DNA from: Cupriavidus basilensis
Lineage (GTDB): Bacteria > Pseudomonadota > Gammaproteobacteria > Burkholderiales > Burkholderiaceae
Assembly (NCBI RefSeq): GCF_000876015.1
Contig: NZ_BBQM01000015.1
Location: 310,001 to 374,000 of the forward strand
Length of the DNA stretch: 64,000 bases
Reading direction: 5' to 3'
The notes under the pieces: generated by a model
Told to the model about the DNA's origin: nothing
Databases searched by the model: none
The model's input: only the letters and a program-made list of their open reading frames with translations
Shown: positions 6,749-63,679 of the stretch, one piece after another
Layout: each line of letters opens with the position of its first letter
How positions within the stretch are numbered: position 1 is the stretch's first letter
Made by a program: the position numbers and the translations under genes

Positions 6749-6775
6749 GTGGCGCTTGAGGGTGGCGCTTGAAGG
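6749..6775. repeat. Tandem 13-bp duplication between convergent genes
   Basis: GTGGCGCTTGAGG is followed directly by GTGGCGCTTGAAGG. It lies in the 96-bp gap between ridA and siaD, which are convergent. The rest of the gap is GC-rich with several short inverted repeats and no T-run terminator. Confidence 0.6.
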
Positions 6776-6805
6776 TGGTGCCTGCGGCAGCCCCCGCGGC
6801 AGCGC

Positions 6806-7537: not shown

Positions 7538-7555
7538 TCGGCGGATCGGCGCGGT

Positions 7556-7945: not shown

Positions 7946-7967
7946 GACGTTGTTTTTCTCGTCCTGC

Positions 7968-8580: not shown

Positions 8581-9837
8581 TTACTGAACGCGAAAGCAGA
8601 AGAAGGTCAGGTCGTCCCGGCGGTTCTGCTGCCCTTGCCAGGCGCTGTATTGCTCCAGCACGGCCTGATTGATGCGCGCGGCCGGCTCATGCCGGCTGGC
8701 GCGCACCGCTTCGCGGATGCGCCGCTTGCCGAAGGCGATCTCCTTGGGGCCGCCGATCTGGTCGACCAGCCCGTCGGTGGTGACGAACACCACGCTGCCG
8801 GGCACGGTCGGCACCACGCGGTTCTGCCAAGCGAAATCCATGCCCGTGTCGAGGTAGCCGGCGCCCATGCGCTCGCCTTCCACCATCTCGCCGTCCTCGT
8901 CGCCGGGGTGCAGCACGAACAGCGCGCTCTTCGCCCCGGCGAAGGACAGGTGCCGGCTGGCATTGTCGAACCAGAAGAAGGCCGCGTCCAGGCCGTCGTT
9001 GGATTCCGCAGTGTCGCCGTAGCGCTCTTCCTGGCCGAGCATCTGCTTGATGCCGCGGTTGAGCGCCATGAGCAGCGCGCCGGGGTCGCGCGGGCCGCGC
9101 TGCTCGATGGCCTGGGTCAGGATGGAGGAGGCGATCAGCGTCATGAAGGCGCCCGGCACGCCGTGCCCGGTGCAGTCGGCCAGCGCGGCGAACCAGCCGT
9201 CCTCGAACGCCGCGAAGTGATAGAAATCGCCGCCGACCACGTCGCGCGGCTCCCACACCAGCCCGGCGTCGCCGAGCGTGCGGGCCATCGCCTCGCGCGA
9301 GGGCCGCAGCATCGAGCGCTGGATGATGCTGGCGTAGTCGATGCTGTGCATGATCTGGCGGTTCTTCTCGGCCTGCATGTCGGCCACCACCCGCATCAGC
9401 TGCAGGCCGCGCCCCAGGCCGAGGAAACGGCCCTCGCGCGCGACGATGAAGCCGTCCGCCAGCGCCTTCTCGCCGTATTCCACCGCCTTGAAGGTCAGCG
9501 CCTCGATGCTCATGGCCGCGTCCACCACCAGCGGCTCCTTGTCCATGAAGGCGATGCAGCTCTTGCGGTTGTACAGCTCGCGATGGTAGGGCTTGCTCAT
9601 CTGCGACATGAAGATCGCGCGGTTGATGAGCCCGATCGGCCGGTCGTCCTCGGTCACCGGCAGGCTGTCGAGGTCGCGGTGCCTGCCGAAGACGTCCAGC
9701 ACGTCCTGGTTGGTCTGTTCCGTTGTCACCGACGGCGTGGCAACGCACAAGTCTTCCGCGCAAGGCTGGCGGAAGCGGGAACGCGCCGCGCGGGGTTCGA
9801 CCCTGCTGGTATCGGCCGGAGCGTCAGACATCGCCAA
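8581..9837 (-). CDS. siaA: SiaA-like PP2C-family phosphatase with N-terminal CBS-like sensor
   Basis: 418 aa. The C-terminal half is a PP2C/SpoIIE phosphatase: GGDFYHFAAFEDGWFAALAD, DCTGHGVPGAFMT, TTDGLVDQIGG and the final RDDLTFF supply the metal-binding aspartates. It should dephosphorylate SiaC. The N-terminal 150 residues have no membrane segment. They resemble the CBS-pair module found in some GGDEF-EAL proteins (LDSLPVTEDDRPIGLINR, PYHRELYNRKSC, DGFIVAREGRFLGLGRG). Classical SiaA is a membrane HAMP protein, so this version senses something in the cytoplasm. It heads the siaABCD operon. Confidence 0.9.
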   Translation of the reverse strand: MAMSDAPADTSRVEPRAARSRFRQPCAEDLCVATPSVTTEQTNQDVLDVFGRHRDLDSLPVTEDDRPIGLINRAIFMSQMSKPYHRELYNRKSCIAFMDKEPLVVDAAMSIEALTFKAVEYGEKALADGFIVAREGRFLGLGRGLQLMRVVADMQAEKNRQIMHSIDYASIIQRSMLRPSREAMARTLGDAGLVWEPRDVVGGDFYHFAAFEDGWFAALADCTGHGVPGAFMTLIASSILTQAIEQRGPRDPGALLMALNRGIKQMLGQEERYGDTAESNDGLDAAFFWFDNASRHLSFAGAKSALFVLHPGDEDGEMVEGERMGAGYLDTGMDFAWQNRVVPTVPGSVVFVTTDGLVDQIGGPKEIAFGKRRIREAVRASRHEPAARINQAVLEQYSAWQGQQNRRDDLTFFCFRVQ

Positions 9838-9980
9838 GGTATCCGGATTATTTCGAAGTCGCTGATTTTAGAAGTGGCGTATGTCTTCTATGTGACAGTT
9901 TCAAGAAAAGAGGGGATTAAGGGGGGTATCTTTCGCGAATGGCACGGGCGCGCGCCGGCCGCCGCCGGCAGCGCGGCCGC

Positions 9981-10967
9981 TCAGGCGTGGCAGACCAGGC
10001 CGCTTTGCAGCTCGCCGGCCTGGTAGGCGAGGTCGCCGGCGCGCTGCTCGCGCGCCCGCGCCAGGCCGCCGCCGCCGACCCAGTAGCGCACCGCGCGGTC
10101 CAGGTAGGCCGCGGAGTCCGGGTCGGGCTGGCGCAGGCCGATCTGCGCGCCGCCGTCGCCGTCCAGGTCCTGGTCCAGCACCCGGTAGAAGCGCCATTCC
10201 GGCAGGCCCGCCAGCCGCGCCAGCGCCAGCTTGTCCTCGGCCAGCGCCTGGCATTCGCCGGCCATGAAGGCGGCGACCGCGCGGATCGCCGACGCATAGA
10301 CCACCGGGGCCGCATGATAGCGGCTGGCCAGTTCCTGCGCATACGGGCTGCCCTGCGCCACGCACACCGGCCGCCGCGCCAGGTCCCCGGCGCGCCGGTA
10401 GGGGCTGCCGCGCAGCGCGATCAGCCGGCCGCTGCCGCCCGCGTAGGGGCTTGCCACGCGCGGCTCGCCGGCGGCGCCGGGGCGGGCGCCGGCGATGACC
10501 AGGTCCGGCGCCGGCGCGCCGGCGCCGTGCGCGCGGCCGTCCGCGTCCAGCCCGACCAGCTTCACCGGCACCCGCAGGCGCTCGCCCAGGAAACGGGCCA
10601 GGCCGGCGTCGAAATCGTCCGGCCCGGGCGGGTTGGACGCGCCGGGCGGCGCCGGCCGGGCGTACTCGCGCACGCCGACGACCAGCACGCCGCGGCGGCG
10701 CGCCCCGGCCAGCACCGGGCCCTGCGGCAGCGCGTCCCAGCGCGGCTCGGGCTGCAGCCGCTGCAGCAGGTCGAGGGCCGGCGCGGGCAGGCTCTCCACC
10801 GGCAGCCGCAGCGGCAGGCGGCCGAGCACGGCGGGAAGGCCGAGCCAGGCCAGCGCCAGCACCGTCACGGCAGCGGCCAGCGCGGCAACCAGTATAGGCA
10901 GCCGCGGATGACCGCCGCGTGACGCCGCGCGCGGGAGCGGCGGCATGGTGGAAGACACGTCAGGCAT
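9981..10967 (-). CDS. Family 3 solute-binding-like protein with N-terminal membrane anchor
   Basis: 328 aa. A hydrophobic segment at about residues 24-45 (PILVAALAAAVTVLALAW) is followed by a bacterial extracellular solute-binding family 3 layout: GVLVVGVREYARP, DFDAGLARFLGERLRVPVKLV, DLVIAGARPG and RPVCVAQGSPYAQELA. The start ATG overlaps the permease stop by 8 bp (ATGCCTGA), so it is the fourth gene of the ABC operon. A second ATG at 10946 is possible. It is odd for an ABC operon with a type-2 binding protein to carry a second, different one. It could be an accessory receptor. Ligand unknown. Confidence 0.75.
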   Translation of the reverse strand: MPDVSSTMPPLPRAASRGGHPRLPILVAALAAAVTVLALAWLGLPAVLGRLPLRLPVESLPAPALDLLQRLQPEPRWDALPQGPVLAGARRRGVLVVGVREYARPAPPGASNPPGPDDFDAGLARFLGERLRVPVKLVGLDADGRAHGAGAPAPDLVIAGARPGAAGEPRVASPYAGGSGRLIALRGSPYRRAGDLARRPVCVAQGSPYAQELASRYHAAPVVYASAIRAVAAFMAGECQALAEDKLALARLAGLPEWRFYRVLDQDLDGDGGAQIGLRQPDPDSAAYLDRAVRYWVGGGGLARAREQRAGDLAYQAGELQSGLVCHA

Positions 10968-11808
10968 TGAGGGTCAGCCCCCGGCGCCAGCGCGTGAGGC
11001 GGCGCTCGATGCGGGCCAGGATGAAGTTCAGCGCCAGCCCCAGCAGCGCCAGCAGCAGGATGCCCGCATACATGGCCGGGATCTGGAACACCTCCTGCGA
11101 ATTCAGCGTGAGGAAACCCAGCCCGGAATGCGCGCCGATCATCTCGGCGGCGACCAGCGCCGTGATGCAGTAGGTGCCGGCCAGGCGGATGCCGGTGAAG
11201 ATGGACGGCGACGCCGCCGGCAGCACCACCTTGCCGAACACGAACAGGCGCGACGCGCCCATCGAGCGCGCCGAGTTGATCAGCAACTGGTCCACCTGCT
11301 TGACGCCGCTGATGGTGCTCAGCAGCACCGGCCAGAACGAGGCCCAGAAGATGATCGCCACCTTGGACAGCTCGCCGATGCCCAGGAACAGGATGAAGAC
11401 CGGGAACAGCGCGAACGCCGAGGTCTGCCGGAACAGCTGCAGGATGGGGTCGACGATGGCTTCGAGCCGGCTGAACCAGCCCATCAGCAGGCCCAGCGCC
11501 ACGCCCAGGCCGATCGCCAGCAGCAGCCCCCACAGCGAGCGCTGCAGGCTCGCGCCCACGTGCTTGAGCAGCTCGCCGCTCTGCGCCATCTGCCAGATGG
11601 CCGGCAGGATCTGCGACGGCGGGCTCAGGTAGGCCTCGCTGACGATGCCGGCGCGCGGCACCAGCTCCCACAGCAGCAGGAAGCCGACGATGCCGACCAG
11701 GCCCAGCGCGCGGTCGCCCAGGCGGGCGGCCAGCGAAGGGCCGGCAAGCCGGCGGATGGCGGCGGCCGGATGGCGCGCCGCGGAAGTGCTGACGGCGGGA
11801 TCGCTCAC
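10960..11808 (-). CDS. ABC transporter permease, nitrate/sulfonate/taurine type
   Basis: 282 aa, about six membrane segments, BPD_transp_1 family (SsuC/TauC/NrtB type). The cytoplasmic EAA loop is seen at SARSMGASRLFVFGKVVLPAASP. The start is GTG whose last two bases form part of the upstream ATPase stop (GTGA), a classic coupling overlap. The reading frame stays open further upstream, but that part lies inside the ATPase gene. Substrate specificity cannot be assigned; aliphatic sulfonates, nitrate or a pyrimidine are family options. Confidence 0.9.
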   Translation of the reverse strand: MSDPAVSTSAARHPAAAIRRLAGPSLAARLGDRALGLVGIVGFLLLWELVPRAGIVSEAYLSPPSQILPAIWQMAQSGELLKHVGASLQRSLWGLLLAIGLGVALGLLMGWFSRLEAIVDPILQLFRQTSAFALFPVFILFLGIGELSKVAIIFWASFWPVLLSTISGVKQVDQLLINSARSMGASRLFVFGKVVLPAASPSIFTGIRLAGTYCITALVAAEMIGAHSGLGFLTLNSQEVFQIPAMYAGILLLALLGLALNFILARIERRLTRWRRGLTLNA

Positions 11809-12758
11809 AGGACGGCCTTGGCTTCGGTGGTGGCCGCCAGCGGCGCCGGGGTGGCGGCGCGCGCGGCGGATGTGGTGGACGCGGCGGACGTAGCGGACGC
11901 AAGGGACGCGGCAGGCTCGCCCGCCACGCGCTCGCCCGGGTTCGCGGTGGCGCCGAGCGGGCGCGGCACCGCGGCGCTGAACTGGACTTCGTCCTTGAGG
12001 ATGTCCCAGGCCTGCTGGCGCAGTCGCACGAATGCCTCGGAGTTGCGCAGCTCGGGCTGGCGCGGGCGCGGCAGCGGCACGTCGATGATGGCCTTGACCG
12101 CGCCGGGCCGGCGCGTCATCACGGCGATGCGGTCGGACAGGAAGATGGCCTCGTCCAGGCTGTGCGTGATGAAGACGATGGTCTTGCGGTACTGCTCCCA
12201 GATCCGCAGCAGCTCGCCCTGCAGGATCTCGCGCGTCTGCGCGTCGAGCGCGGCGAACGGCTCGTCCATCAGCAGCACCTCGGGCTTGTAGGCCAGCGAG
12301 CGCGCGATCGCCACGCGCTGCTTCATGCCGCCCGAGATCTCGTGCGGGTAGCGCTCGCCGAAGCCTTCCAGCCCGACCAGCTCCAGATGCGCCTGCGCGA
12401 TGCGGCGCCGCTCGGCGCGCTTGACGCCGCGGATCTCCAGCCCGACCTCGATGTTCTGCAGCACCGTGCGCCACGGGAACAGCGCATAGCCCTGGAACAC
12501 CACGCCCTGGTCGCGGCTGATGCCGGCCAGCGGCTTGCCGTCGATGGCGATGTGGCCGCCGGTGCGCTCGGTCAGCCCGGCCAGGATGCTCAGGAAGGTG
12601 GACTTGCCGCAGCCGGACGGGCCCAGCACGGAAAGGAACTCGCCGTTGCGGATGGCGAGGTTGAAGTCCTGCAGCACGGCCACGTTCTCGGGCCGCCCGT
12701 TCTCGCCGCGCACGGCGTAGTCCATCTGCACGCCGCGCGCGAGAATCTTGTCGGTCAT
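11805..12758 (-). CDS. ABC transporter ATP-binding protein, nitrate/sulfonate type, with Ala/Thr-rich tail
   Basis: 317 aa. Walker [11 protein letters not shown]-loop VVFQGYALFPWRTV, signature ISGGMKQR, Walker B VLLMDEPFAALD and switch FITHSLDEA are all intact. SsuB/TauB/NrtD proteins usually end near residue 260-270. This one continues for about 45 residues of Ala/Ser/Thr-rich sequence (ASLASATSAASTTSAARAAT) with no recognisable fold. It lies between the binding protein (13-nt gap) and the permease (GTGA overlap). Confidence 0.92.
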   Translation of the reverse strand: MTDKILARGVQMDYAVRGENGRPENVAVLQDFNLAIRNGEFLSVLGPSGCGKSTFLSILAGLTERTGGHIAIDGKPLAGISRDQGVVFQGYALFPWRTVLQNIEVGLEIRGVKRAERRRIAQAHLELVGLEGFGERYPHEISGGMKQRVAIARSLAYKPEVLLMDEPFAALDAQTREILQGELLRIWEQYRKTIVFITHSLDEAIFLSDRIAVMTRRPGAVKAIIDVPLPRPRQPELRNSEAFVRLRQQAWDILKDEVQFSAAVPRPLGATANPGERVAGEPAASLASATSAASTTSAARAATPAPLAATTEAKAVL

Positions 12759-12771
12759 GATGCGCTGCCTC

Positions 12772-13854
12772 TCAGGCTTTCGCCTGGGCCTTGGCCGCGA
12801 ACGGGTTGAACTCGTTGGTGTAGATGCTGGCGGCCGTCACCTTGCCCTTGGCCAGCTTGCCCTCGGCTTCCAGCACGTCGATGTAGTACTGGATCGGCGG
12901 CTCGGTCACCACCAGGTTGTCCACGTAGGCATAGCGGTCCACGTAGTCGAGCTGCAGCTTGATGCGCTCGGACACCAGCTTGCGCGCGTCCTCGGGGTTG
13001 GCGTTGACCCAGTTGGCGGCCTTGGCCAGCGCCGTCACCACGTCGCGCACCGACTCGGGATGCTCGCGGATGAACTTGCCGTGCGCGCTGTACGGCTGCA
13101 TGCCGCCCAGGCCGCCGTCGAGGTCGAAGTCGCTCCACAGGCGCACCAGCTTGTCGGCGTGGTCGGCGCGGCCCGAGAACGGCGCGTGGATGATGGCCAG
13201 GTCGGTATTGCCGGTGGCCAGCGTCTGCTCGGCCTGGTCGTCGGGGATCACCACGAAGTTGATCTTGGTGACGTCCACGCCCTTCTGGCGCAGGTAGGTC
13301 TTGGTGACGAACTCCGCGCACGCGCCGAAGCTGTTGATGCCGATGGTCTTGCCTTCGAGGTCCTTGGGCTGGCGGATGCCGGAGGCCTTGCGCACGAAGT
13401 ACTTCATGTGCGGCGCGTCCTGCAGCGTCTTGTTGCCGGCCGCCACCACCTTGATGTCGGCGCCGCTGGCCACCGCGGAAATCACCAGCGGCACCATGCG
13501 CGAGCCGAAGTCGATCTCGCCGGTGCCGGTCAGCGGGATGATCTGCGGCGCGGCGACCTTGCCGATGTACTGCGGGCGCGTGTTGGTGCCCTCGAAATAG
13601 CCGAGCTGCTCGGCCAGGTAGACCAGGTCGAAGGTCGGGTTGTCCGGGTAGCGGAAGCGCACCTTGTCGCCCACCTTGGCCACCACCGCCGGCGCGCCGC
13701 CGGCCGCGCCATTTGCCGCGCCGCCGGCCGCCTGCGGCGCGCCTTCGCGCGAGCAGGCCGCCAGCAGGGAGCCGAAGCCGCCGGCGGCGGCCAGCGAGGC
13801 CAGTTGCTTGAGAACGAGGCGGCGGGAGCCGGGGGCGGAGGAGGGCGCTGGCAT
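12772..13854 (-). CDS. ABC transporter substrate-binding lipoprotein, NMT1/SsuA-like
   Basis: 360 aa from the ATG used here; a start further upstream would put 37 Arg-rich residues before the signal. The signal contains SRRLVLKQLASLAAAGG and a lipobox LLAAC, so the mature protein is lipid-anchored or Tat-exported. Body motifs KVRFRYPDNPTFDLVYLAEQ, GKTIGINSFGACAEFVTKTY and DLAIIHAPFSG fit the NMT1/THI5-like periplasmic family. First gene of the four-gene ABC operon and divergent from nothing: the LysR gene upstream runs the same way. Ligand unknown; sulfonate, nitrate or a heterocycle are candidates. Confidence 0.88.
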   Translation of the reverse strand: MPAPSSAPGSRRLVLKQLASLAAAGGFGSLLAACSREGAPQAAGGAANGAAGGAPAVVAKVGDKVRFRYPDNPTFDLVYLAEQLGYFEGTNTRPQYIGKVAAPQIIPLTGTGEIDFGSRMVPLVISAVASGADIKVVAAGNKTLQDAPHMKYFVRKASGIRQPKDLEGKTIGINSFGACAEFVTKTYLRQKGVDVTKINFVVIPDDQAEQTLATGNTDLAIIHAPFSGRADHADKLVRLWSDFDLDGGLGGMQPYSAHGKFIREHPESVRDVVTALAKAANWVNANPEDARKLVSERIKLQLDYVDRYAYVDNLVVTEPPIQYYIDVLEAEGKLAKGKVTAASIYTNEFNPFAAKAQAKA

Positions 13855-14044
13855 TCGAAGTTGTCCTGTCGGAATGTCCTGCCGGCGCGGGAGCGCATGC
13901 ATCCTGCGCGTCGATGGCGGACGGGGATCAGCCCGGAGTATCGGCCAGCGCGGGCGCGCCACCAACGAAGGCTTTCAACTATGAATATCAGGTGGATGCA
14001 GCCGGCGCGCGGCCGGCCTCGCGTCCTCACTCATTTGTCTTCAC

Positions 14045-14932
14045 TCACTTCTTCATCAGCCGCCTGAGCGTCTCCACGAAATCCTGCGCCAGCCGCGACA
14101 GCGGCTCGGTCTGCACATGGAAGATCTGCACCGAGCCGCTGACCTTGGTCCGGACCGGCACCGCCACGATGCCCGGCCAGTCCTGGCCGAACACGGTCAT
14201 GGCGTCCACCAGCGCGATGCCGGCGCCCGCCTGCGCCAGCGCGCGCGCCACGTGGGCCTGTTCCACCTGCACGCGCATGTCGGGCTGGTCGTCCTCGCCG
14301 CCGAACATCTCGCGCACCAGCAGCCCGAACGGCACGTCGGCGCCGTAGCCGATCAGCGGCTCGCCGGCCAGCTCGGCGGGCCGCACCGAGGCGCGCGCGG
14401 CGAGCCGGTGGCCGGCCGGCACCAGCGCCACGATGGGGTTGCGCACCAGCAGCCGCGCGGCCAGGTTGGGGTGCGCCAGCGGCATGTTGGAGATCGCCAG
14501 CTCGACCTGGCCGGACAGCAGCGCGCGCAGCATGTTGGCGGGGATCTGCGTGCGCACCACGATGCGGATGTCGGGGTGCGCCGCGCGGAACGCGGCGATC
14601 GCGCGCGGCAGCACGGTCTGGCCGAGGTTGGGGTTGCACGACACGCGCAGGCTGCCGGTGCGCTTGGCGGCGAGGTCCTCGGCGATCTCGTTGACGCGCT
14701 CGATGCCCTCGTACACGGCATTGACCTCGCCGAGCAGGCGGCGCGCCTCGGGCGTCGGGTAGAGGCGGCCCTTGATGCGCTCGAACAGCGCCAGCCCCAG
14801 GCGCTGCTCGGTGTGCGACATGAGGCGGCTGATGGCCGGCTGCGACACGTAGAGCAGCTTGGAGGCGGCGCTGATCGAGCCGGTGAGCATGACGGCGCGG
14901 AAGACTTCGATCTGCCGGAGATTGAGTTTCAT
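14045..14932 (-). CDS. LysR-family transcriptional regulator
   Basis: 295 aa from MKLNLRQIEVFRAVMLTGSI. The winged helix occupies residues 1-60 (SAASKLLYVSQPAISRLMSH) and the effector-binding domain the rest. Earlier in-frame starts would add 17 unlikely residues. It is divergent from the cyclodeaminase/PhnD-like/Bug set and lies upstream of the ABC operon on the same strand, so it may control either. The best operator candidate lies 51 bp upstream of its start. Confidence 0.92.
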   Translation of the reverse strand: MKLNLRQIEVFRAVMLTGSISAASKLLYVSQPAISRLMSHTEQRLGLALFERIKGRLYPTPEARRLLGEVNAVYEGIERVNEIAEDLAAKRTGSLRVSCNPNLGQTVLPRAIAAFRAAHPDIRIVVRTQIPANMLRALLSGQVELAISNMPLAHPNLAARLLVRNPIVALVPAGHRLAARASVRPAELAGEPLIGYGADVPFGLLVREMFGGEDDQPDMRVQVEQAHVARALAQAGAGIALVDAMTVFGQDWPGIVAVPVRTKVSGSVQIFHVQTEPLSRLAQDFVETLRRLMKK

Positions 14933-14982
14933 CGTGGTCGCGGGGCGGCCGGCGAAGGCCCGCGGCGCGCCCCGCCAGTCCA

Positions 14983-14995
14983 TAACATGATGTTA
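14983..14995. promoter_or_regulatory. LysR-type operator candidate, T-N11-A palindrome
   Basis: TAACATGATGTTA is a perfect 6-1-6 palindrome that fits the LysR T-N11-A rule. It lies in the 277-bp region between the LysR gene and the divergent cyclodeaminase-family gene. The remainder of that region shows no other clear site. Confidence 0.6.
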
Positions 14996-15209
14996 AGTCA
15001 GATGGACAAATAAGCATACGACATTCATGGCCGCGATACCTAAACTTGCTCTCGAAGGCGCCCCACGCCGGGCATTTCCGCCGCGGCGGCAAACGCGCAC
15101 CACAGTGGTTCCGCCGGGCACGCCGATGGGGCGCCGATGCACCGGGCGCCGCGCGCGACGCACCGGGCGCGTGCATTCACTTACTTGAAACCTGAAGACA
15201 GGAGACGGC

Positions 15210-53467: not shown

Positions 53468-53537
53468 CTCGATGACGGATCTGGTTGGAGAACTGGAACG
53501 GAACAGACGGTTGACCGGTATTGAATAGCTTTTTTGG

Positions 53538-53571
53538 ATTCAGATCGAATATTACATAGATTTCTGATCTA
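53538..53571. promoter_or_regulatory. Paired LysR-type operator candidates
   Basis: ATTC-AGATC-GAAT (53538-53550) and TAGAT-TTCTG-ATCTA (53557-53571). Two sites one helical turn or so apart is the usual LysR recognition plus activation site layout. Confidence 0.5.
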
Positions 53572-53671
53572 CCCACGAATTTGCCCCCGAGCGGGGGGCA
53601 CAGGCGGTTCCACGTCCCGTACCGGGACATCTGATGCTCATGAAATGCGTCATTTATCAAAGGAGGCAGCG

Positions 53672-55021
53672 ATGTCTGCGCAAACAGAGTCAATCGATAC
53701 GCTGATCATCGGCGCCGGCCAGGCAGGTATCGCCATGAGCGAGCATCTCACGCGGCTCAAGGTCCCGCACGTGATACTCGAGCGGGATCGTATCGCCGAG
53801 CGGTGGCGCAGCAGGCGCTGGGATTCGCTGGTCGCCAATGGCCCGGCCTGGCACGACCGCTTCCCCAACCTCGAGTTCGACAACGTGGACCCGGACGGCT
53901 TTGCCGCCAAGGAACAGGTGGCCGACTACTTCGAGCGATACGCGCGGCAGTTCGGCGCGCCCGTGCGCACCGGCGTCGAGGTCCTGGGCGTCGAGCGCCG
54001 CGACGGACAACCGGGCTTCGTGGTCGATACGAGCTCCGGGCGCTTTCATGCGCTCCGCGTCGTGGTGGCCACGGGCGCGTTCCAGCGCCCGGTGATCCCC
54101 GCCATCGCGCCCGTGGATGCGGGCCTGACGCAATTGCATTCGGCGTACTACAAGAATCCCGCGCAGCTGCCCGCCGGTGCGGTACTGGTGGTCGGCGCCG
54201 GTTCGTCGGGGGTACAGATCGCCGACGAACTGCATCGTTCGGGACGCGAGGTCTATCTCTCGGTCGGCGCGCATGACCGCCCGCCGCGCACCTATCGCGG
54301 CCGCGACTTTTGCTGGTGGCTGGGCGTGCTCGGCGAGTGGGACAAGGAAATCGCGGTGCCCGGCCGCGAACACGTGACCATTGCCGTCAGCGGCGCCTAT
54401 GGCGGCCAGGCCATCGATTTTCGCCGGCTCGCGCACGGCGGCATGAAACTGGTCGGGCTGACCAAGGCCTTCGACAACGGCGTGGCCAGCTTCGAAGGCG
54501 ACCTCGCCGCCAACCTTGCGCGTGGCGACCAGAGCCTGATGGCCATGCTGGACGCCGCCGACGCCTATGCGGCGCGCAACGGCCTGGACCTGCCGGAGGA
54601 TCCGCAGGCACGCTACATCCCGCCCGACCCGGATTGCGTGCGCAACCCCATCGCCAGCCTGGACCTGGCCCAGGCCGGCGTGAAGACCATCATCTGGGCC
54701 ACCGGCTATGCGGTCGACTACGACTGGCTGAAGGTGGATGCCTTCAACGAGCAAGGCAAGCCGCAACACCAGCGCGGCGTATCCAGCGAGCCCGGCGTCT
54801 ATTTCCTGGGCCTGCCGTGGCTGTCCCGGCGCGGCTCATCGTTCATCTGGGGCGTGTGGCACGACGCCAAGCACGTCGGCGACCACATCGCCAACCAGCG
54901 CAAGTACCTCGCCTACGACGTCGCCCTGCGCGCCAGGGCGGCGCCGCGCCCGCGCGAGGTCGCCAGCACCACCATCGCCCCAGAGGCGCCATTGCAAACC
55001 ACCTTCGCAGGAGCGAAATGA
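53672..55021 (+). CDS. FAD/NAD(P)-binding flavoprotein monooxygenase (CzcO-like)
   Basis: 449 aa; AAAGGAGG precedes the ATG. FAD motif TLIIGAGQAGIAMSEHLTRL at residues 9-28, NAD(P) motif VLVVGAGSSGVQIADELHRS at about 172-191, and the hinge motif IIWATGYAVDYDWL near 330. RWRSRRWDSLVANGPAW and HSAYYKNPAQLPAG are typical of class B-like monooxygenases and YUC-type enzymes. It likely oxygenates an amine or carbonyl compound. The stop overlaps the RidA start. Confidence 0.9.
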   Translation: MSAQTESIDTLIIGAGQAGIAMSEHLTRLKVPHVILERDRIAERWRSRRWDSLVANGPAWHDRFPNLEFDNVDPDGFAAKEQVADYFERYARQFGAPVRTGVEVLGVERRDGQPGFVVDTSSGRFHALRVVVATGAFQRPVIPAIAPVDAGLTQLHSAYYKNPAQLPAGAVLVVGAGSSGVQIADELHRSGREVYLSVGAHDRPPRTYRGRDFCWWLGVLGEWDKEIAVPGREHVTIAVSGAYGGQAIDFRRLAHGGMKLVGLTKAFDNGVASFEGDLAANLARGDQSLMAMLDAADAYAARNGLDLPEDPQARYIPPDPDCVRNPIASLDLAQAGVKTIIWATGYAVDYDWLKVDAFNEQGKPQHQRGVSSEPGVYFLGLPWLSRRGSSFIWGVWHDAKHVGDHIANQRKYLAYDVALRARAAPRPREVASTTIAPEAPLQTTFAGAK

Positions 55022-55461
55022 TGCCGACGCACCATCGCATACGCATGTTCAACACCAAGGACACCTATCCCAATCAGGCGCTTGACAATGACCTGTGCCA
55101 GGCGGTGCGGGCCGGCAATACCGTCTATGTCCGCGGACAGATCGGCACCGATTTCGACGGCAATCTGGTCGGGCTGGGCGATCCGCGCGCGCAGGCCGAG
55201 CAGGCGATGAAGAATGTGAAGCAGCTGCTCGAGGAAGCCGGCAGCGACCTGAGCCACATCGTCAAGACCACCACCTACATCACCGACCCGCGCTACCGCG
55301 AGCCGGTCTACCAGGAAGTGGGGAAGTGGCTCAAGGGCGTGTTCCCGATCTCGACGGGCCTGTGCATCAGCGCCCTCGGCCAGCCGCAGTGGCTGATGGA
55401 GATCGACGTGATTGCCGTCATTCCCGAGAACTGGACGGCGAAGCCGGCGCAAGGAGCCTGA
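55021..55461 (+). CDS. RidA family protein
   Basis: 146 aa starting MPTHHRIRMFNTKDTYPNQA. The ATG directly before it (55018) overlaps the previous stop as ATGA; AGGAG is 7 nt before the ATG used and 4 nt before the other. Segments VRAGNTVYVRGQIGTDFDGN, EQAMKNVKQLLEEAGSDLSH and PISTGLCISALGQPQWLMEI. Probably hydrolyses enamine or imine by-products of the amine-oxidising flavoprotein next door. Confidence 0.9.
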   Translation: MPTHHRIRMFNTKDTYPNQALDNDLCQAVRAGNTVYVRGQIGTDFDGNLVGLGDPRAQAEQAMKNVKQLLEEAGSDLSHIVKTTTYITDPRYREPVYQEVGKWLKGVFPISTGLCISALGQPQWLMEIDVIAVIPENWTAKPAQGA

Positions 55462-55462
55462 C

Positions 55463-56140
55463 ATGACATTTTCCATCGTCGGCCGCTGCCCGCAGACCGG
55501 GCAACTCGGTATCGCCATCAGCTCTTCGAGCATCTCCGTCGGCGCGCGCTGCCCCTGGGTACGCGCGGGCGTCGGCGCGGTGGCCACACAGAACGTCACG
55601 CTGCCCGCGCTGGGCCCGGAGATCCTGGACCTGCTGGAAACCGGCAAGTTGCCGCCGGCGCAGGCGTTGGACCAGGCGCTGGCCGCCCGTGAGTGGAGCG
55701 AGTACCGCCAGGTCGCCGTCATCGACCAGCAGGGAAGGACGGCGTTCTTCACCGGCAAGGAAGCACTGGGCCTGAGCCATGCCGTTGCCGGCCAACAATG
55801 CCTCGCCGCCGGCAACATGCTGGCGGACCGGCGGGTGGCCGACGTCATGGTGGCGGCCTTTGAGCAATCCGAGGGCGCCTTGGGCGACCGCCTGCTGCAC
55901 GCCATGCACGCCGCCGTGAAGGCCGGCGGCGAAGCCGGACCGGTTCATTCGGCCGCGCTCAAGATCGCCGGTACGCAAACCTGGGCGCTGGTGGACCTGC
56001 GCGTGGACTGGACCGATGACGATCCAGTCACCGTGCTGGACGCGCTGTGGCGGAGGTATCAGCCGCAGATGCAGGACTACGTGACGCGGGCGCTCAATCC
56101 GCTCGCCGCGCCCAGTTACGGCGTGCCGGGCGACGAGTGA
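55463..56140 (+). CDS. DUF1028 family protein (Ntn-hydrolase-like)
   Basis: 225 aa starting MTFSIVGRCPQTGQLGIAIS; AAGGAG is 7 nt upstream. The first residues, with Thr2 after Met removal, resemble Ntn hydrolases. SISVGARCPWVRAGVGAVAT and ALVDLRVDWTDDDPVTVLDA are family hallmarks. Found often beside RidA genes; role not established. Last gene of the flavoprotein set. Confidence 0.92.
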   Translation: MTFSIVGRCPQTGQLGIAISSSSISVGARCPWVRAGVGAVATQNVTLPALGPEILDLLETGKLPPAQALDQALAAREWSEYRQVAVIDQQGRTAFFTGKEALGLSHAVAGQQCLAAGNMLADRRVADVMVAAFEQSEGALGDRLLHAMHAAVKAGGEAGPVHSAALKIAGTQTWALVDLRVDWTDDDPVTVLDALWRRYQPQMQDYVTRALNPLAAPSYGVPGDE

Positions 56141-56247: not shown

Positions 56248-57177
56248 CTATTGCCGCGTGAGCATCAGGTTCAGGTTCTGCACCGCTGCGCCGGATGCGC
56301 CTTTGCCAAGATTGTCGAAAACCGCGGACAGCAGGACGTGCCCGTGTTCCATGTTGGGAAATACGCTCAGGCGCATGTCGCTGGTGCCGTTCAGCGCCTG
56401 CGGATCCAGGTGCTTCAGGGCGCGCGATTCGTGCAGCGGCGTGACACTTACGTGGGCCGCCTCGGCATAGTGGCGTGCGAGGCATGCGTGCAACGCGGCG
56501 CCATCCACGTCGGGTGCCAGCAGCCGCAGCGTCAGGGGGACCGTCAGCACGATGCCCTGGCGGAACGCCCCAATCGCGGGGACGAAGATGGGACGCTGCG
56601 CGAGCCCGGCGTGCTGCTGGATCTCCGGGGTGTGCTTGTGCGCGAGTTCCAGGCCATATACCTGGTATGAAGGCGCGTTGACGGCTCCCGGTCCCTCATA
56701 TTCCTCCACGCCGGCACGCCCGCCTCCGGAGTAGCCGGACACCGCATGAATGCTGACGGGGTAGTTGCCCGGTATGAGCCCGGCCTGCAACAGGGGGCGC
56801 AGCAAGCCGATGGCGCCGGTCGGATAACAACCGGGATTGGTGACCCGACGCGCGTTCGCGATGCGCTCGGCCTGTCCCGGCGCCATTTCCGGAAATCCGT
56901 ATGTCCAGTCCGGCCGCGTGCGGTGGGCGGAACTGGCGTCGATGACTCTGACGGCGGGATTGACAATGGCGTCCACCGCCTCGCGCGCGGCGGCATCGGG
57001 CAAGCAGAGGATGGCGATGTCGCAGGCGTTGATGGCTTGCGCGCGGCGCCGCGGATCTTTGCGTTCCGCGGCGGCAAGCGTGAGCAGTGCGAGGTCGGTC
57101 CGGTTGCGCAGCCGTTCGTGGATTTGCAGCCCGGTGGTGCCTTGGTCGCCGTCGATGAAAACAACAGGAGAGCGCAT
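56248..57177 (-). CDS. argC: N-acetyl-gamma-glutamyl-phosphate reductase, type 2
   Basis: 309 aa, short ArgC form. NADP segment [20 protein letters not shown], catalytic Cys in [19 protein letters not shown] (about residue 117), then [18 protein letters not shown] and [20 protein letters not shown]. It reduces acyl phosphates to semialdehydes in arginine synthesis. No other arg gene is adjacent and a LysR gene is divergent, so it may be a catabolic paralogue in this region. Confidence 0.93.
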
Positions 57178-57306: not shown

Positions 57307-58191
57307 ATGCGAGAGATCAGCCTGGACCGTCTGCGCACGCTGGTCGCCATTGCCGACCGTGGCTCATTTGCCGATGCGGCGCGCGCACTGCACCTGGCGC
57401 CGCCCACGGTCAGCCTCCACATCGCCGAACTCGAAGACCGCATTGGGGCGCCGCTCCTGTCACGGAAGCGCGGGCATGTCAGGCCGTCGGCGATAGGCGA
57501 GGTGCTGGTGGAGCGCGCGCGCCGGCTGCTGGCCGATGCGGAGCAGGCGTTGGACGATATTCAACGCCAGGTGCAGGGGCTCGAAGGGCGCGTGCGGCTC
57601 GGCGCGTCGACCGGCGTGATCGCGCACCTCTTGCCGCAGGCGCTCGAAGCGCTGCGCCAGCACCATCCCGCCATCGACATTCAGATTGCGGTGCTCACTT
57701 CGCATGAAACGCTGTCCCGACTGGCGGATGGAACGCTCGATGTCGGGCTGGTCGCACTGCCTCAGCCCCCGGTGGCCGGACTCGTGATAAAGCCCTGGCG
57801 CCGCGACCCCGTGATGGCCTTTGTGCCGGCGCACTGGCGGTGCCCGGCCCGCGTCACGCCGGAATGGCTCGCCGCCCAGCCTCTCATTCTCAATGACGCG
57901 ACCACGCGCCTCTCGCGCCTGACCGCGGAATGGTTCGCGGCCGGAGGGCAGCATCCCGCGCCGCGCATTCAGCTCAACTACAACGACGCGATCAAGAGCC
58001 TGGTGGCGGCAGGCTATGGCGCGGCGCTGTTGCCCCATGAGGCCACCACGCCATTGCTCGACGGGCGCATTGTCATGCGTCCGCTGCGCCCGGCGTTGTG
58101 GCGCCGGCTCGGTATCGCGCATCGTGCCGGGTACGTTGAGCGTTCCACGCAGCACGTACTCGATGTGTTGTGGGATCTGCGATTGACGTAG
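57307..58191 (+). CDS. LysR-family transcriptional regulator
   Basis: 294 aa. HTH: ADAARALHLAPPTVSLHIAE (residues 20-40). Effector part: GRVRLGASTGVIAHLLPQAL and NDAIKSLVAAGYGAALLPHE. ArgP/IciA-like in outline but ligand not known. Divergent from argC, which is its most likely target. Confidence 0.92.
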   Translation: MREISLDRLRTLVAIADRGSFADAARALHLAPPTVSLHIAELEDRIGAPLLSRKRGHVRPSAIGEVLVERARRLLADAEQALDDIQRQVQGLEGRVRLGASTGVIAHLLPQALEALRQHHPAIDIQIAVLTSHETLSRLADGTLDVGLVALPQPPVAGLVIKPWRRDPVMAFVPAHWRCPARVTPEWLAAQPLILNDATTRLSRLTAEWFAAGGQHPAPRIQLNYNDAIKSLVAAGYGAALLPHEATTPLLDGRIVMRPLRPALWRRLGIAHRAGYVERSTQHVLDVLWDLRLT

Positions 58192-58502: not shown

Positions 58503-59438
58503 CTACGTCGGAATACCGAGTGCCGCGACCAGCGTCGTCCGCCGCACGCGCGGCAGCAGCATCCGGATAAAGTCGAAGGCGAACGGTTTGAGCAAGTGAT
58601 CCCGTCGAACCATGACCATAGCCGTCGAGGCAGGGAAAATATGCCCGGCTTCGATGCAGCGCAGCCTCGGATCCGGGTCGTCTTCCATCGCCATCTTGTT
58701 CAGCGCGGCGATGCCGACGCCTTGCGCCACGTAGGCCTTCATCACGTCCACGTCCATGGCGCGCATCACGATGCGGGGCTGTAGCCCGTGCATCTGGAAC
58801 GCACGCTGCACCACGGCGCCGGACGTGAATTTCTCGTCGTGCACAATCCACGGCCAGTCGGCCAGATCCCTGATCTTGATCTCGCCCAGTGCCAGCAGCG
58901 GGTGCCCCCGCGGCACGACGAGGCAGCGCTCCATCTCGTAGGCGCGAAGCGAAAGGATATCGGGTGCGGCGTTCGACGGCATGGTGCTCAGGCCGATGTC
59001 GATGCTGCCGTCGCGCACGCCGGCGTGGATTTCGGGCGGCGTGCCGACCGAGTACTCCAGCTGGACGTGAGGGTAGGTGCGCAGGAAGCGCCCGGTGACG
59101 GGCAGCAGCCGGTAGCGCGCATGAACATGCGTGGTGCCCAGGCGGATCGTGCCGCGCGCCTGCCCGCCTTGCCCGTTGTCGCGCAGGCCGCGCAATGCCT
59201 GCGAGTCCTGCAGGATGCGGCCCGCAAGCGAATAGGCCTCGCGTCCGGCATCGGTCAGCCCCACCAGCCGATTGCCGCGCCTCGCGAAGACCACGATGCC
59301 CAGTTCGTTTTCGAGCGCGCGCACCATCTTGCTCACGCCTGGCTGGGTGGTGAAGAGCGCCTCGGCCGTGCGTGAAACGCTGAAGCCGTTGGCCACGATC
59401 TGGCGGATGCAGTGAAGTTGCTGGAAGGTCATCGACAT
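58503..59438 (-). CDS. LysR-family transcriptional regulator (CysB/Cbl-like)
   Basis: 311 aa. HTH: FSVSRTAEALFTTQPGVSKM (residues 19-38), the CysB-type GVSKMVRALENELGI form. Effector domain: GTTHVHARYRLLPVTGRFLR, DGSIDIGLSTMP and KAYVAQGVGIAALNKMAMED. Divergent from the lyase/Bug/MmgE genes, which it probably controls. Confidence 0.93.
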   Translation of the reverse strand: MSMTFQQLHCIRQIVANGFSVSRTAEALFTTQPGVSKMVRALENELGIVVFARRGNRLVGLTDAGREAYSLAGRILQDSQALRGLRDNGQGGQARGTIRLGTTHVHARYRLLPVTGRFLRTYPHVQLEYSVGTPPEIHAGVRDGSIDIGLSTMPSNAAPDILSLRAYEMERCLVVPRGHPLLALGEIKIRDLADWPWIVHDEKFTSGAVVQRAFQMHGLQPRIVMRAMDVDVMKAYVAQGVGIAALNKMAMEDDPDPRLRCIEAGHIFPASTAMVMVRRDHLLKPFAFDFIRMLLPRVRRTTLVAALGIPT

Positions 59439-59483
59439 GGCGGCACGGGGAGTCTCGGCACAATGGCCATATTATGCAATGCA

Positions 59484-59499
59484 GGCAATGATTGATGCC
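59484..59499. promoter_or_regulatory. Weak operator candidate before the lyase gene
   Basis: GGCA-N8-TGCC within an AT-rich part of the 134-bp LysR/lyase divergent region. Short arms, so only a suggestion. Confidence 0.25.
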
Positions 59500-59572
59500 A
59501 ATTAATTCATTTGACGGCATGAACTGACGGGACGCACATTAGCGGCAACATAACTCCGTTCCATGTGCCTCC

Positions 59573-61066
59573 ATGTCAGCACCATCCGCACCTTCTGCAC
59601 CGTCCGCACCATCCGCACCTTCCGGCCACGCCAGCGCCGCCTACGCCGTCAAGGACGTCAACGAAGCCTTCCGCGGTGGTGCGCGGGTTCCGGCATTCCT
59701 CGGCCAGATCAACCAGGCCTCCCTCGTCATGCTCACCGAGCGCGACGTCATCGGCGCGCAGGATGCCCGCGCGATTGCGCAGGCCATCCTGGCCCTCGAG
59801 AACGAAGCGCCAGCCGCACGCCCCTCGGGCGACTATCTCGACTACGAGCGCCGGCTGGCGGCGCTGGCCGGCCCGTCGGCGTCGCTGGTGCATGCCGGCC
59901 GCAGCCGGCAGGACATTGCCTCCACGCTCTCGCGCATGAACCTGCGAGCCGACCTGCTCGATGCGCACGCGGGCCTGGGCGACATGCGGCGCGGGCTGCT
60001 GAAGTTGGCGGGGGACCACGTGCGCACGGTCATTCCTGCCTACACGCACGGCGTGCAGGCCCAGCCCACGACGCTGGCGCACTACCTGCTGGCCGTCGTC
60101 GCCGCGCTGGGCCGGCAGCAACAGCGGCTGGAGCAGGCCTATGCGCGCATCAACCTCAGTCCGCTGGGCGCGGCCGCCCTGGCGGCGTCGAGCTTCCCTG
60201 TCGACCGCGAACGCCTGGCCAGCCTGCTGGGCTTTGGCGGCATCGTGCGCAACACCTACGACGCGAACCATCTTGCCTCGGTGGACAGCAGCCTGGAACT
60301 GGCATCCGTGCTTGCCAGCTGCGCCGTGCAGATCAGCCAGTTTGCGCAGGACCTGCATTCGCAGTACCTCACGCCTCATCCCTGGCTCACGATGCGCGGG
60401 GGCGAACTCATGGGCATCAGCAGCCTGATGCCCCAGAAGCGCAATCCGGCCGCCCTGGAGCAGTTGCGGGCGCAGAGCAGCCTGCTGCTCTGCGAGATGC
60501 AGGGGCCGTTCCTCGTCGCCCACAACGTGCGGACCGGCATGTTCGACTACCGCGCCTACGACCCGCTGTCCTCCAAGCGCTTCGTGGCGCTGTTCGCGCT
60601 TTTCACGCGGATCGTCGACAGCCTCGTGGTCGACGCGCAGCAGGCCCGCCGCGAGGTGGATGCGGACTATTCCACGGTCACGGAGATTGCCGACGTGCTC
60701 ATGCAGCAGGCCCGCGTGCCTTTCCGCCTCGGCCACCATTTCGCCTCGCTCCTGACCGATTTCGGCCGCGAACGGCGGCTGCGCCTGGCGGAGATCTCCT
60801 ACGAACAGGCCTGCGCGCTTTACCGCGAACAGGCCGGCGCGGAACTCCCGATCGACGCCGTGCAGTACAACCAGTGCGTGGATGCCGAGCAGATGATCCT
60901 GCGGCGCCGTGGCGCGGGCGGACCCCAGCCAGACGAGGCGATGCGCATGCTGGACGAGGAGCGCGCGGCAGCCGAAGCCGCCGGCGTCTGGAACGCGCAG
61001 GCCCGGCAGGCTCTCGCCCGGGCCGGCGACGAACTTCTTGCGCTCACGCGCGCGCGGGCCGGCTGA
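59573..61066 (+). CDS. Argininosuccinate lyase-like C-N lyase
   Basis: 497 aa of the aspartase/fumarase superfamily. Substrate segment AGRSRQDIASTLSRMNLRAD near residue 107, catalytic base region IPAYTHGVQAQPTTLAHYLL near 155 and the mobile signature MGISSLMPQKRNPAALEQL near 280 (catalytic Ser kept; the usual GSS is ISS). It should release fumarate from an N-substituted aspartate. No arginine gene context: the neighbours are a LysR, a Bug receptor and an MmgE/PrpD protein. Iminodisuccinate or EDDS-type substrates are inferred candidates. The N-terminus begins with a Ser-Ala-Pro repeat. Confidence 0.88.
   Translation: MSAPSAPSAPSAPSAPSGHASAAYAVKDVNEAFRGGARVPAFLGQINQASLVMLTERDVIGAQDARAIAQAILALENEAPAARPSGDYLDYERRLAALAGPSASLVHAGRSRQDIASTLSRMNLRADLLDAHAGLGDMRRGLLKLAGDHVRTVIPAYTHGVQAQPTTLAHYLLAVVAALGRQQQRLEQAYARINLSPLGAAALAASSFPVDRERLASLLGFGGIVRNTYDANHLASVDSSLELASVLASCAVQISQFAQDLHSQYLTPHPWLTMRGGELMGISSLMPQKRNPAALEQLRAQSSLLLCEMQGPFLVAHNVRTGMFDYRAYDPLSSKRFVALFALFTRIVDSLVVDAQQARREVDADYSTVTEIADVLMQQARVPFRLGHHFASLLTDFGRERRLRLAEISYEQACALYREQAGAELPIDAVQYNQCVDAEQMILRRRGAGGPQPDEAMRMLDEERAAAEAAGVWNAQARQALARAGDELLALTRARAG
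59574..59625 (+). repeat. Ser-Ala-Pro codon repeat at the lyase N-terminus
   Basis: Imperfect tandem 9-bp units (TCNGCACCN form) encode five SAP triplets right after the start codon. Such runs can change length by slippage in whole codons. Confidence 0.6.
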
Positions 61067-61122
61067 GCGGCGCCGCTTATCCGAAATCGGAACAATCCAA
61101 CCAAATAAAACGAAAGGAGACC

Positions 61123-62103
61123 ATGCCAATCCTCAACCTTCGTCCCCTGCGCCGCGCCGCGGTCGCCGTGGCGGCGCTTGTGCTCAGCGCCGCCGCGCAC
61201 GCGGAGTACCCCGACCACCCCATTCGCCTCGTCCTCCCGTACGCCTCGGGCGGCGGCGCCGACACCGTCGGCCGGCCGATGGCCGTTGCCCTGTCCAAGC
61301 AGCTCGGCGCCACGGTCATCGTCGACAACCGGGGCGGAGCGAGCGGCGGCATCGCCATGTCCCTGGTGGCCCACGCCAAGCCGGACGGCTACACGCTGGC
61401 GTTGGCCCTGACAGCCCAGGCGGCCATCAACCCGGGACTCGTCAAGCGGCTCTCCTATGATCCCGTCAAGGACTTCGAGCCGATCTCGCTGCTGGCGCAG
61501 GCGCCGTACTTTCTGGCCGTCTCGCCGAGCCTCGGCGTCAAGACGCTGCCCGAGTTCATTGCGCTGGTGCGCAAGAATCCCGGCAAGTTCTCCTACGGTT
61601 CCTCCGGCACCGGCAGCGGCCTGCACCTGTCGATGGAACTGCTCAAGTCGATGGCCGGGCTGGACATGGAGCACATCCCCTACCAGGGCGCCTCGCCGGC
61701 CTATACCGACCTGATGGGTGGGCGCCTGCAAGCCGTGTTCGCCGGCTTCGGCAGCGGCGGCAGTTTCCTGCAGGCAGGCAAGATGGTGGCGCTGGGCGTC
61801 ACCACCGCCCAGCGCTCTCCCGCGCATCCCGAAGTTCCGACGATCGCCGAGGCCGGCGTGCCGGGGTACCAGTCCTATGTCTGGTACGCCTTGCTGGCGC
61901 CCAAGGGCACGCCCCAGCCCATTCTCGACAAGTTGCAGCGCGCCGCCGTCGCGGCGCTGAAGGATCCCGAGGTGCAGAAGCTGTTCATGGTCGACGGCGT
62001 GCAGCCGATCGGCTCCTCGCCGCAGGAGCTGTCGGCCTTCATGCGCAAGGAGACGGTCAAGTGGCGGGAAGTCATCCAGCGCGCCGGCATCGAACCGGAA
62101 TGA
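61123..62103 (+). CDS. Bug-type tripartite tricarboxylate transporter substrate-binding protein
   Basis: 326 aa; AAAGGAGA is 6 nt before the ATG. Signal peptide ends AAHAE. The mature part YPDHPIRLVLPYASGGGADT, DNRGGASGGIAMSLVAHAKP-DGYTL and HIPYQGASPAYTDLMGGRL is typical of the family. Placed between the lyase and MmgE/PrpD genes (56-bp and 217-bp gaps), it probably binds their di- or tetracarboxylate substrate. Confidence 0.93.
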   Translation: MPILNLRPLRRAAVAVAALVLSAAAHAEYPDHPIRLVLPYASGGGADTVGRPMAVALSKQLGATVIVDNRGGASGGIAMSLVAHAKPDGYTLALALTAQAAINPGLVKRLSYDPVKDFEPISLLAQAPYFLAVSPSLGVKTLPEFIALVRKNPGKFSYGSSGTGSGLHLSMELLKSMAGLDMEHIPYQGASPAYTDLMGGRLQAVFAGFGSGGSFLQAGKMVALGVTTAQRSPAHPEVPTIAEAGVPGYQSYVWYALLAPKGTPQPILDKLQRAAVAALKDPEVQKLFMVDGVQPIGSSPQELSAFMRKETVKWREVIQRAGIEPE

Positions 62104-62178
62104 GCGCTCGACCTGAATGCCGGGCGAGGCGAAGCGCCGCGTTCCATTCGCGCGCCTCGCATTCCGTCCCGGGCTTCA

Positions 62179-62223
62179 GGCATTGAAGGCATTGAAGGCG
62201 TTGCGGGCAACCCGGGCAACCCG
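62179..62223. repeat. Short tandem repeats upstream of the MmgE/PrpD gene
   Basis: GGCATTGAA occurs twice in tandem, followed by GGCAACCCG twice in tandem. The function is not apparent. Confidence 0.5.
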
Positions 62224-62320
62224 GGGCCATAAGCATTCAAGGCATCGACGCGCGTGGCGCGTCATCCATCCACCTGCCGGCGAGCAGGCTTTTTTCGAAC
62301 GAAACCAGGAGTACGAATTC

Positions 62321-63679
62321 ATGCACCTTTCAGCCAGCGAGAAGATCGCCGCCTTCGCGGTCGGCTTCGACGCCTCGGCGATTTCCGCCGAGGCCCGCGC
62401 CGCCGCAGCACGCGCGCTCTACGACACCATCGCCGTCGCAGTGGGCGGCGCGCATGAGCCCGCGTCCGCGCGGGTGCTGGACTATGCGCGCGGCCAGGGC
62501 ACCAACGCCGCGCGCATGGCCACGGTCTGGGCCACCGGCGAGCGCCTGCCCGTCGAGATGGCCGCGCTGGTCAATGGCACGATGGGCCACGTGCTCGATT
62601 TCGACGACGTCAGCTCCCCGCTGCGCGGCCATCCGAGCGTTGCGATGTTCCCCGCGGTGGTGGCCCTGGGCGAGGGGCTCGGCAGTGCCGGCCGCGCGGT
62701 GCTCGACGCCTGCGTGGTGGGCCTGGAGGTGACCGTCCGCATCGCGCGCGCCATCGTGGACGACCAGTACGCCAAGGGTTGGCACTCCACCGTCTCGATC
62801 GCCGCCTTCGGCACGACCGCCGCCTGCGCGCGCCTGTTGGGGCTCGACCAGCAGCGCACGATTCATGCGCTGGGCATCCTCGTGTCGCAGATCGCGGGAA
62901 CCCGGGAGAACTTCGGCACGATGGGCAAGGCCTTCCAGGCGGGACAGGCGAATGCGATCGCGCTCCGGTCCGTGCTGCTGGCCGACGCGGGTCTGGATGC
63001 ATCGCCCGCGGCGCTGGACGGCAAGCAGGGCTACGCGGTGCTCTATGCCGACGGCCAGGATCTGCACGCGGAGCTCGACCGCCTGGGCGAGCTGCCGTTG
63101 GAGATCGAACGTTCGGGGCTCGACATCAAGAAGTATCCGCTGTGCTATGCCACCCACCGGGCGATTCAGGGCATGCTCGACATCCGGCGCGAAACGCCGT
63201 TCACGCTCGACGACGTGGAGCGCGTGGACGTGAAGACGAACTACCGCGCCACGGTGCCTCTCATCCACGATCGCCCGCGCACGGGTCTCGAAGCCAAGTT
63301 CAGCATGCAGTACGCCATGGCGGCGGCCATTTGCGATGGCGCGGTAAATCTGGCGAGCTTTCGCGACGAGCCGGTTCTGCGGCCCGAGATCCAGGCCTTC
63401 TTCGACCGGGTGCACCTGAGCCAGGGCGAACCGCCGACCTTCCCGCGCTGGGCCGAAGTCGCCGTTCACCTGCGCGACGGCCGCCGGCTGGCGATTCGCG
63501 TGGAGGCCCTTCGCGGCAGTGCGCAGCTGCCGCTCACCGATGACGAACTGATCGAGAAGGCGACGGATTGCTTCGCCTACGGCCGCAAGGCGCCTGGCGA
63601 TGCCGGGCGGCTCGGTCAGGCCTGCTTCCACCTGGAAAGGCTGCCGCTGCAGGCCGTGCTGGACTCGCTGCGCGGCTAG
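62321..63679 (+). CDS. MmgE/PrpD family protein (possible epimerase or dehydratase)
   Basis: 452 aa, two-domain MmgE/PrpD fold: ALYDTIAVAVGGAHEPASAR, ALVNGTMGHVLDFDDVSSPL, RGHPSVAMFPAVVALGE, KGWHSTVSIAAFGTTAACAR and FSMQYAMAAAICDGAVNLAS. CCAGGAG precedes the start. The family includes 2-methylcitrate dehydratase, cis-aconitate decarboxylase and iminodisuccinate epimerase. With an ArgH-like lyase and no prp genes beside it, an epimerase that prepares the lyase substrate is the most coherent guess. Ends the transcript before a strong hairpin. Confidence 0.9.
   Translation: MHLSASEKIAAFAVGFDASAISAEARAAAARALYDTIAVAVGGAHEPASARVLDYARGQGTNAARMATVWATGERLPVEMAALVNGTMGHVLDFDDVSSPLRGHPSVAMFPAVVALGEGLGSAGRAVLDACVVGLEVTVRIARAIVDDQYAKGWHSTVSIAAFGTTAACARLLGLDQQRTIHALGILVSQIAGTRENFGTMGKAFQAGQANAIALRSVLLADAGLDASPAALDGKQGYAVLYADGQDLHAELDRLGELPLEIERSGLDIKKYPLCYATHRAIQGMLDIRRETPFTLDDVERVDVKTNYRATVPLIHDRPRTGLEAKFSMQYAMAAAICDGAVNLASFRDEPVLRPEIQAFFDRVHLSQGEPPTFPRWAEVAVHLRDGRRLAIRVEALRGSAQLPLTDDELIEKATDCFAYGRKAPGDAGRLGQACFHLERLPLQAVLDSLRG

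Follow-up and report, generated by a model that had tools for sequence, protein, structure and literature searches.

A candidate uptake-and-cleavage unit for N-substituted succinates in Cupriavidus basilensis: an ArgH-superfamily lyase paired with a Bug receptor

The closest described systems and the gene row

Fumarate-releasing lyases acting on N-substituted aspartates serve as biocatalysts and account for the breakdown of some chelators, and few natural examples have, to our knowledge, been characterised. Iminodisuccinate (IDS) lyase occurs in strain BY6 and in Ralstonia SLRS7; the lyase trees described below cover ArgH and EDDS lyase as reference enzymes. The solved structures nearest to the proteins studied here are the EDDS lyase of Chelativorans sp. 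BNC1 (PDB 6g3d, 6rx8) and the IDS epimerase of Agrobacterium tumefaciens BY6 (PDB 2hp0). In the former, residues R112, N113, Q159, N288, D290 and Y320 lie close to the substrate (PMC12363623). Catalytic residues are proposed for the latter in two reports (PMC12290011, PMC7347537), the first of which notes that BlastP retrieved just one IDS-epimerase sequence. It also proposes a His/Tyr two-base inversion at C2 for (S)-(R)-methylsuccinate isomerase, which belongs to the MmgE/PrpD family, as does one of the proteins considered below (PMC12290011).

We analysed a stretch of 64,000 nucleotides (the window) on contig C48 of a 7.8 Mb genome. An earlier note had taken four genes of the window for a possible IDS or EDDS-type catabolic cassette, in which a LysR gene faces an ArgH-like lyase, a Bug receptor and an MmgE/PrpD protein. 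Pfam domains confirm the four genes at the places claimed, and the LysR and lyase genes are indeed divergent, with 134 bp between them. A literature search returned no report of such a unit, nor of argininosuccinate lyase, MmgE and a tripartite tricarboxylate transporter together. The features are as follows.

56248-57177, minus strand: argC of the second type (N-acetyl-gamma-glutamyl-phosphate reductase; TIGR01851, 404 bits against a cutoff of 230), a neighbour outside the unit
58503-59438, minus strand: LysR-type regulator (Pfam LysR_substrate and HTH_1)
59484-59521, no strand: candidate LysR operator, a 38-bp intergenic block in common with the Variovorax locus L045 (alignment)
59573-61066, plus strand: ArgH-superfamily lyase, 497 aa, probably cytoplasmic (Pfam Lyase_1, 124 bits)
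61123-62103, plus strand: Bug/TctC periplasmic substrate-binding receptor (Pfam PF03401 TctC, 247.7 bits against a cutoff of 27)
62273-62288, plus strand: terminator-like hairpin, then CTTTTTT, in the Bug-MmgE gap (hairpin search)
62321-63679, plus strand: MmgE/PrpD-family protein with an epimerase/isomerase-type active site (Pfam, 187 bits for the N domain and 103 for the C domain)

The last of these (MmgE hereafter) probably starts at the ATG at 62321, which has an AGGAG ribosome-binding site upstream; the mechanical open reading frame begins at 62117. The lyase and Bug genes are separated by 56 bp, and the Bug and MmgE genes by 217 bp that contain the hairpin and its six T residues. The hairpin is weak evidence, with three terminator-like sites in 5.7 kb against 2.8 expected in shuffles and a fold z-score of -0.14 for the region 62240-62310.

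The surroundings were said to be free of arginine and methylcitrate genes. The first statement is contradicted by the argC, at a distance of 1.3 kb from the LysR gene; the second holds. The genome's true prpD adjoins an AcnA-type aconitase gene on another contig, C52. Another LysR gene (57307-58191) adjoins the argC, and positions 53534-56140 hold a row of flavin monooxygenase-like and RidA-like genes, both called by eye, and a DUF1028 gene found by profile match. Downstream of the lyase-Bug pair in a relative, L227, there are likewise genes for an FAD monooxygenase and for a protein resembling RidA, the latter under its Pfam cutoff.

The lyase and its pairing with a Bug receptor

The window lyase shares its fold and catalytic signature with ArgH, and differs from it in model score, motif and clade. 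It scores 217.8 bits on the argH model TIGR00838 (217.1 in the genome-wide search), below the cutoff of 279.5, whereas the genome's true argH, encoded elsewhere, reaches 606 bits. In the alignment, the ArgH substrate motif Y[NS]KDxQEDKE is present in 4/4 ArgH rows and absent from the window lyase and its clade. The lyase falls outside ArgH in trees, and joining its wider clade to ArgH was rejected (p 0.006). An identity as argininosuccinate lyase is ruled out by the sub-cutoff score, the missing motif, the separate clade and the true argH elsewhere, so that the grouping with ArgH which the earlier note had named as its refutation is not what we see in silico.

The proposed kinship with EDDS lyase survives in part. 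EDDS lyase is the nearest solved structure both by sequence, at 30% identity, and by predicted fold, but forcing it into the narrow clade of the window lyase was rejected (p-AU 1.6e-7). Placing it as sister to the wider lyase clade gave a p-AU of 0.119; its row forms a long branch, which takes a place on the ArgH side when the trees are unconstrained. Only two of the six substrate-near residues are identical in the window lyase (R112 and N288), the others being changed (Asn113 to Gln, Gln159 to His, Asp290 to Ala and Tyr320 to Met), and the window lyase carries a motif of its own, HNxRTGMFDYRxYDP, unlike EDDS lyase. On sequence grounds, we assign it to an uncharacterised clade of the fumarase superfamily. 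Its N-terminus (59573-59650) is a low-complexity Ser-Ala-Pro repeat not found in aligned relatives, and the structural model has a pLDDT below 50 over residues 1-32.

Lyase matches at E 1e-95 or better occur in 27 of 399 genomes from the order to which the window belongs. These comprise its own, 21 at 53-59% identity and five at 43-45%; a search of 35 further genomes in the genus, one of them 54% complete, found no relative above 37% identity. The gene is thus sparse across genomes and was therefore probably acquired. Another divergent row of LysR / lyase - Bug - Bug is present in the same genus (L184 on G003:C1, lyase at 8657-10213); this lyase is 33% identical to that of the window, is kin to L024-L028 and scores 381 on the argH model, above the cutoff of 279.5.

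A scan of GTDB species genomes, considered for the best 80 of at least 588 confirmed loci, contained the window-type loci L044-L050. Counting L044, L048 and L049 once each with their duplicates L217, L229 and L220, there are 25 distinct lyase relatives (L029, L030, L045, L046, L047, L050 and L212-L230), with flanks of 0.2-10 kb, such that part of the negatives among them reflects short contigs. A same-strand Bug gene, at least 50% identical to that of the window, lies no more than 360 bp behind the lyase in 11 of the 25 (L030, L045, L213, L216, L220 and L225-L230). The paired gene of L228 is cut by the contig end, and that of L045 (11488-12407) is split over two frames by a frameshift or a sequencing error. 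No other full-length Bug match at these loci exceeds 45% identity to the window Bug, and L215 has an 86-residue fragment (51% identity) 5.9 kb off. The conserved unit is the lyase plus Bug. Further neighbours of the lyase vary between relatives, so that they do not reveal a pathway.

The window Bug is of the same family as its PDB matches, namely 2dvz, the terephthalate-binding protein 8hka and BugD (2f5x), with E values down to 1e-74. No TctA gene was found within the window; the genome has five. The best NCBIfam models of the LysR protein are those of the CysB family, nearest the CysB/Cbl subfamily, all below cutoff (274 bits against 402 for PRK12684). A LysR gene is kept in the same place in one of the 25 relatives, Variovorax L045, where it is 54% identical. 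Between that locus and the window, the intergenic block is identical at 25 of 38 positions, a value reached by 0/500 dinucleotide shuffles for a length picked after the alignment was seen; the best 30 bp have 20 identities (4/500 shuffles) and the best 20 bp have 14 (86/500).

A sister branch of the window-type enzymes, the outer lyases, is represented in the same genome by L032 (C52:260928-262265). Its rows in the alignment read RSSQD or RSRQD instead of RSRND. A signal-peptide-like N-terminal extension was called in 24 of 27 outer lyases (L013-L022, L031, L032, L051-L053, L055-L058, L060, L091, L132, L133 and L231, the last counted by identity and not by tree), against 1 of 25 window-type rows and 0 of 9 ArgH-side rows, by a simple rule limited to that extension and with two window-type rows having no start in reach. 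The outer lyases are thus apparently exported, to judge from their N-termini, and the use of an external compound would be in keeping with both arms, the exported one and the cytoplasmic one linked to a receptor.

The reading that we prefer, with a probability of roughly 0.55, is that LysR / lyase - Bug forms a regulated uptake-and-cleavage unit for an exogenous N-substituted succinate, which the MmgE may or may not serve. The Bug receptor would bind this compound, an amino acid or amine with an N-succinyl group, in the periplasm, and import would probably proceed via a TctAB permease encoded elsewhere. The cytoplasmic lyase would then carry out an elimination of the kind typical of the aspartase/fumarase superfamily, giving the free amine and fumarate, and the fumarate would enter the TCA cycle; the bond broken could be C-S or C-O instead of C-N. 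The LysR protein would turn the unit on from the common intergenic region. Several observations count against this reading. The paired Bug is missing in 14 of the 25 relatives, some of them on short contigs, and the LysR is common to one relative only. Bug genes are very common in some genomes, so that a neighbouring one may be there by chance, one of the same type less so. Finally, the L045 lyase has a Thermus ArgH as its closest PDB sequence match, not EDDS lyase. A bolder and rather doubtful extension would set the lyase apart from both ArgH and EDDS lyase in a third functional branch that scavenges N-succinyl compounds from outside the cell and has an exported (periplasmic) arm and a Bug-recruiting cytoplasmic arm; in this strain an epimerase-type MmgE would have joined it, making all substrate stereoisomers usable.

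The MmgE/PrpD-family protein

The window MmgE scores 37.3 bits on the PrpD model PRK09425, for which the cutoff is 575 and the genome's true PrpD reaches 892. An identity as 2-methylcitrate dehydratase PrpD is ruled out by score and trees; the methylcitrate role, also named beforehand as a refutation of the cassette, does not emerge in silico. The best solved match is IDS epimerase (34% identity, E 1.5e-65), followed by B. subtilis IRG1. All seven of the IDS-epimerase residues H85, D88, H99, Y145, H150, K198 and K266 are kept, as H90, D93, H104, Y150, H155, K203 and K270 respectively. These residues are non-specific: among 40 family rows, His occupies the H99 place in 40 and the H150 place in 37, Lys the K198 place in 39 and Tyr the Y145 place in 28, and a member of the window protein's own clade, L145, has Ser at the Y145 place. 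By its active site, the MmgE would suit C2 deprotonation of a succinate-like acid, and might either epimerise the lyase substrate or work on an unrelated dicarboxylate. Its fold predicted without an alignment had a mean pLDDT of 37.

In the tree, the window MmgE falls into a clade with support 100/100 together with L035, L130 and L143-L145 of the same family, and IDS epimerase into another (100/99) with L042 and L043, which are 42-43% identical to it. Holding the two clades together was not rejected (p 0.114); free trees separate them. The claimed relation to IDS epimerase stands as regards the nearest solved relative and the retained catalytic residues; a common clade is less likely. The closest IDS-epimerase homologues are 38.6% identical in plasmids and 42-43% in G040, and a search of 398 genomes from the phylum gave best values of 33-35%, with G342 first and the window's own MmgE second. 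The G040 proteins (L187 and L188 on G040:C1), the nearest found, are encoded close to Bug genes and without a lyase, and no lyase was found near L042 or L043. The copies L155 and L160 in the genus have an acyl-CoA-dehydrogenase-like gene as their neighbour and, on this context read by eye, were assigned to methylsuccinate isomerase; they are 27% identical to the window MmgE and distant from it in the tree.

The association of the MmgE with the lyase is not conserved, and its gene is a strain-specific neighbour. An MmgE gene follows the lyase in 0/25 relatives, eight further MmgE queries having been added for distant ones, and is found at 0/14 outer-clade lyase loci; among the best 80 of at least 588 lyase loci, the one MmgE match is at L117, a true argH, about 7 kb off. 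Searched from the other side, with flanks of about 9 kb, 0/5 distinct nearest MmgE relatives have a lyase nearby. Of these relatives, L134 and L130/L149 adjoin PrpF and Bug genes, L130/L149 also a PEP-mutase-family gene, and L146-L148 lie beside CoA-transferase and hydratase-like genes. Lyase, Bug and MmgE occur in one row in the window's own genome alone among those searched. The single four-gene unit envisaged earlier is not supported as such; its lyase-Bug portion remains, and the place of the MmgE in it is doubtful in view of the 217-bp gap, the hairpin and the lack of conservation. At L227 and L228 a different MmgE (31-32% identical to that of the window) is encoded on the opposite strand, at distances of 3.5 and 5.1 kb upstream of the lyase. 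It is the last gene of a divergent row of Bug, CitE-like, CoA-transferase-like and MmgE genes (10570-15026 and 3854-8534, respectively) that adjoins the lyase-Bug pair, and the CitE-like protein matched the citE and itaconate lyase RipC models, both below cutoff. These rows are a weak hint that MmgE-type and lyase enzymes may meet.

Other readings and what the locus means

An even chance attaches to the reading that the MmgE is functionally unconnected with the lyase and catalyses the isomerisation or dehydration of a branched or tricarboxylic acid, which is compatible with the uptake-and-cleavage unit that we prefer. The neighbourhoods of its five nearest relatives and the long gap with its hairpin suggest as much, and the operator-like block is not repeated upstream of the MmgE gene. 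Set against this are its position as the last, co-directional gene of the same row, the company of lyase and MmgE at L227 and L228, and the chance-level number of terminators; moreover, the suggested function depends on the gene context of relatives, none with a known activity.

We regard as unlikely the chelator cassette first proposed, in which the MmgE epimerises stereoisomers of IDS or an EDDS-type compound and the lyase yields aspartate and fumarate. It draws on EDDS lyase and IDS epimerase as nearest solved structures, on the retained epimerase residues and on the two sister relations that were not rejected (p 0.119 and 0.114). However, the identities are low, each window protein belongs to a clade of its own, the epimerase residues recur widely across the family and most of the EDDS substrate-near residues are replaced, in addition to the missing MmgE in lyase relatives. 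What stands of the proposed substrate is a weak sequence kinship with nothing specific to IDS, and IDS is one possible substrate among others.

CysB-type regulators have many roles in this bacterial group, which weakens a further and very improbable reading, in which the lyase splits a succinylated sulfur compound and the regulator senses sulfur supply. The kinship of the LysR to CysB/Cbl models is matched by the presence of the CoM-synthesis lyases XcbC/XcbD among the weaker NCBIfam matches of the window lyase, but all of these models are far below cutoff. A TauD-type dioxygenase gene lies behind the lyase in L029, and L046 has a further TauD-like gene at a distance of about 7 kb, but in the remaining relatives with gene starts read by eye the lyase is not followed by TauD. 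A second argininosuccinate lyase tied to the nearby argC can hardly be entertained despite the superfamily fold, given the evidence against ArgH above and given that no ArgC match was found in the best 80 of at least 588 loci or in the 25 relatives.

A clade that repeatedly pairs with a receptor and has a sister branch bearing signal peptides would yield new enzymes and a clue to their natural substrates. In such genomes, membership of the ArgH or MmgE/PrpD family need not make a protein an argininosuccinate lyase or a methylcitrate dehydratase.
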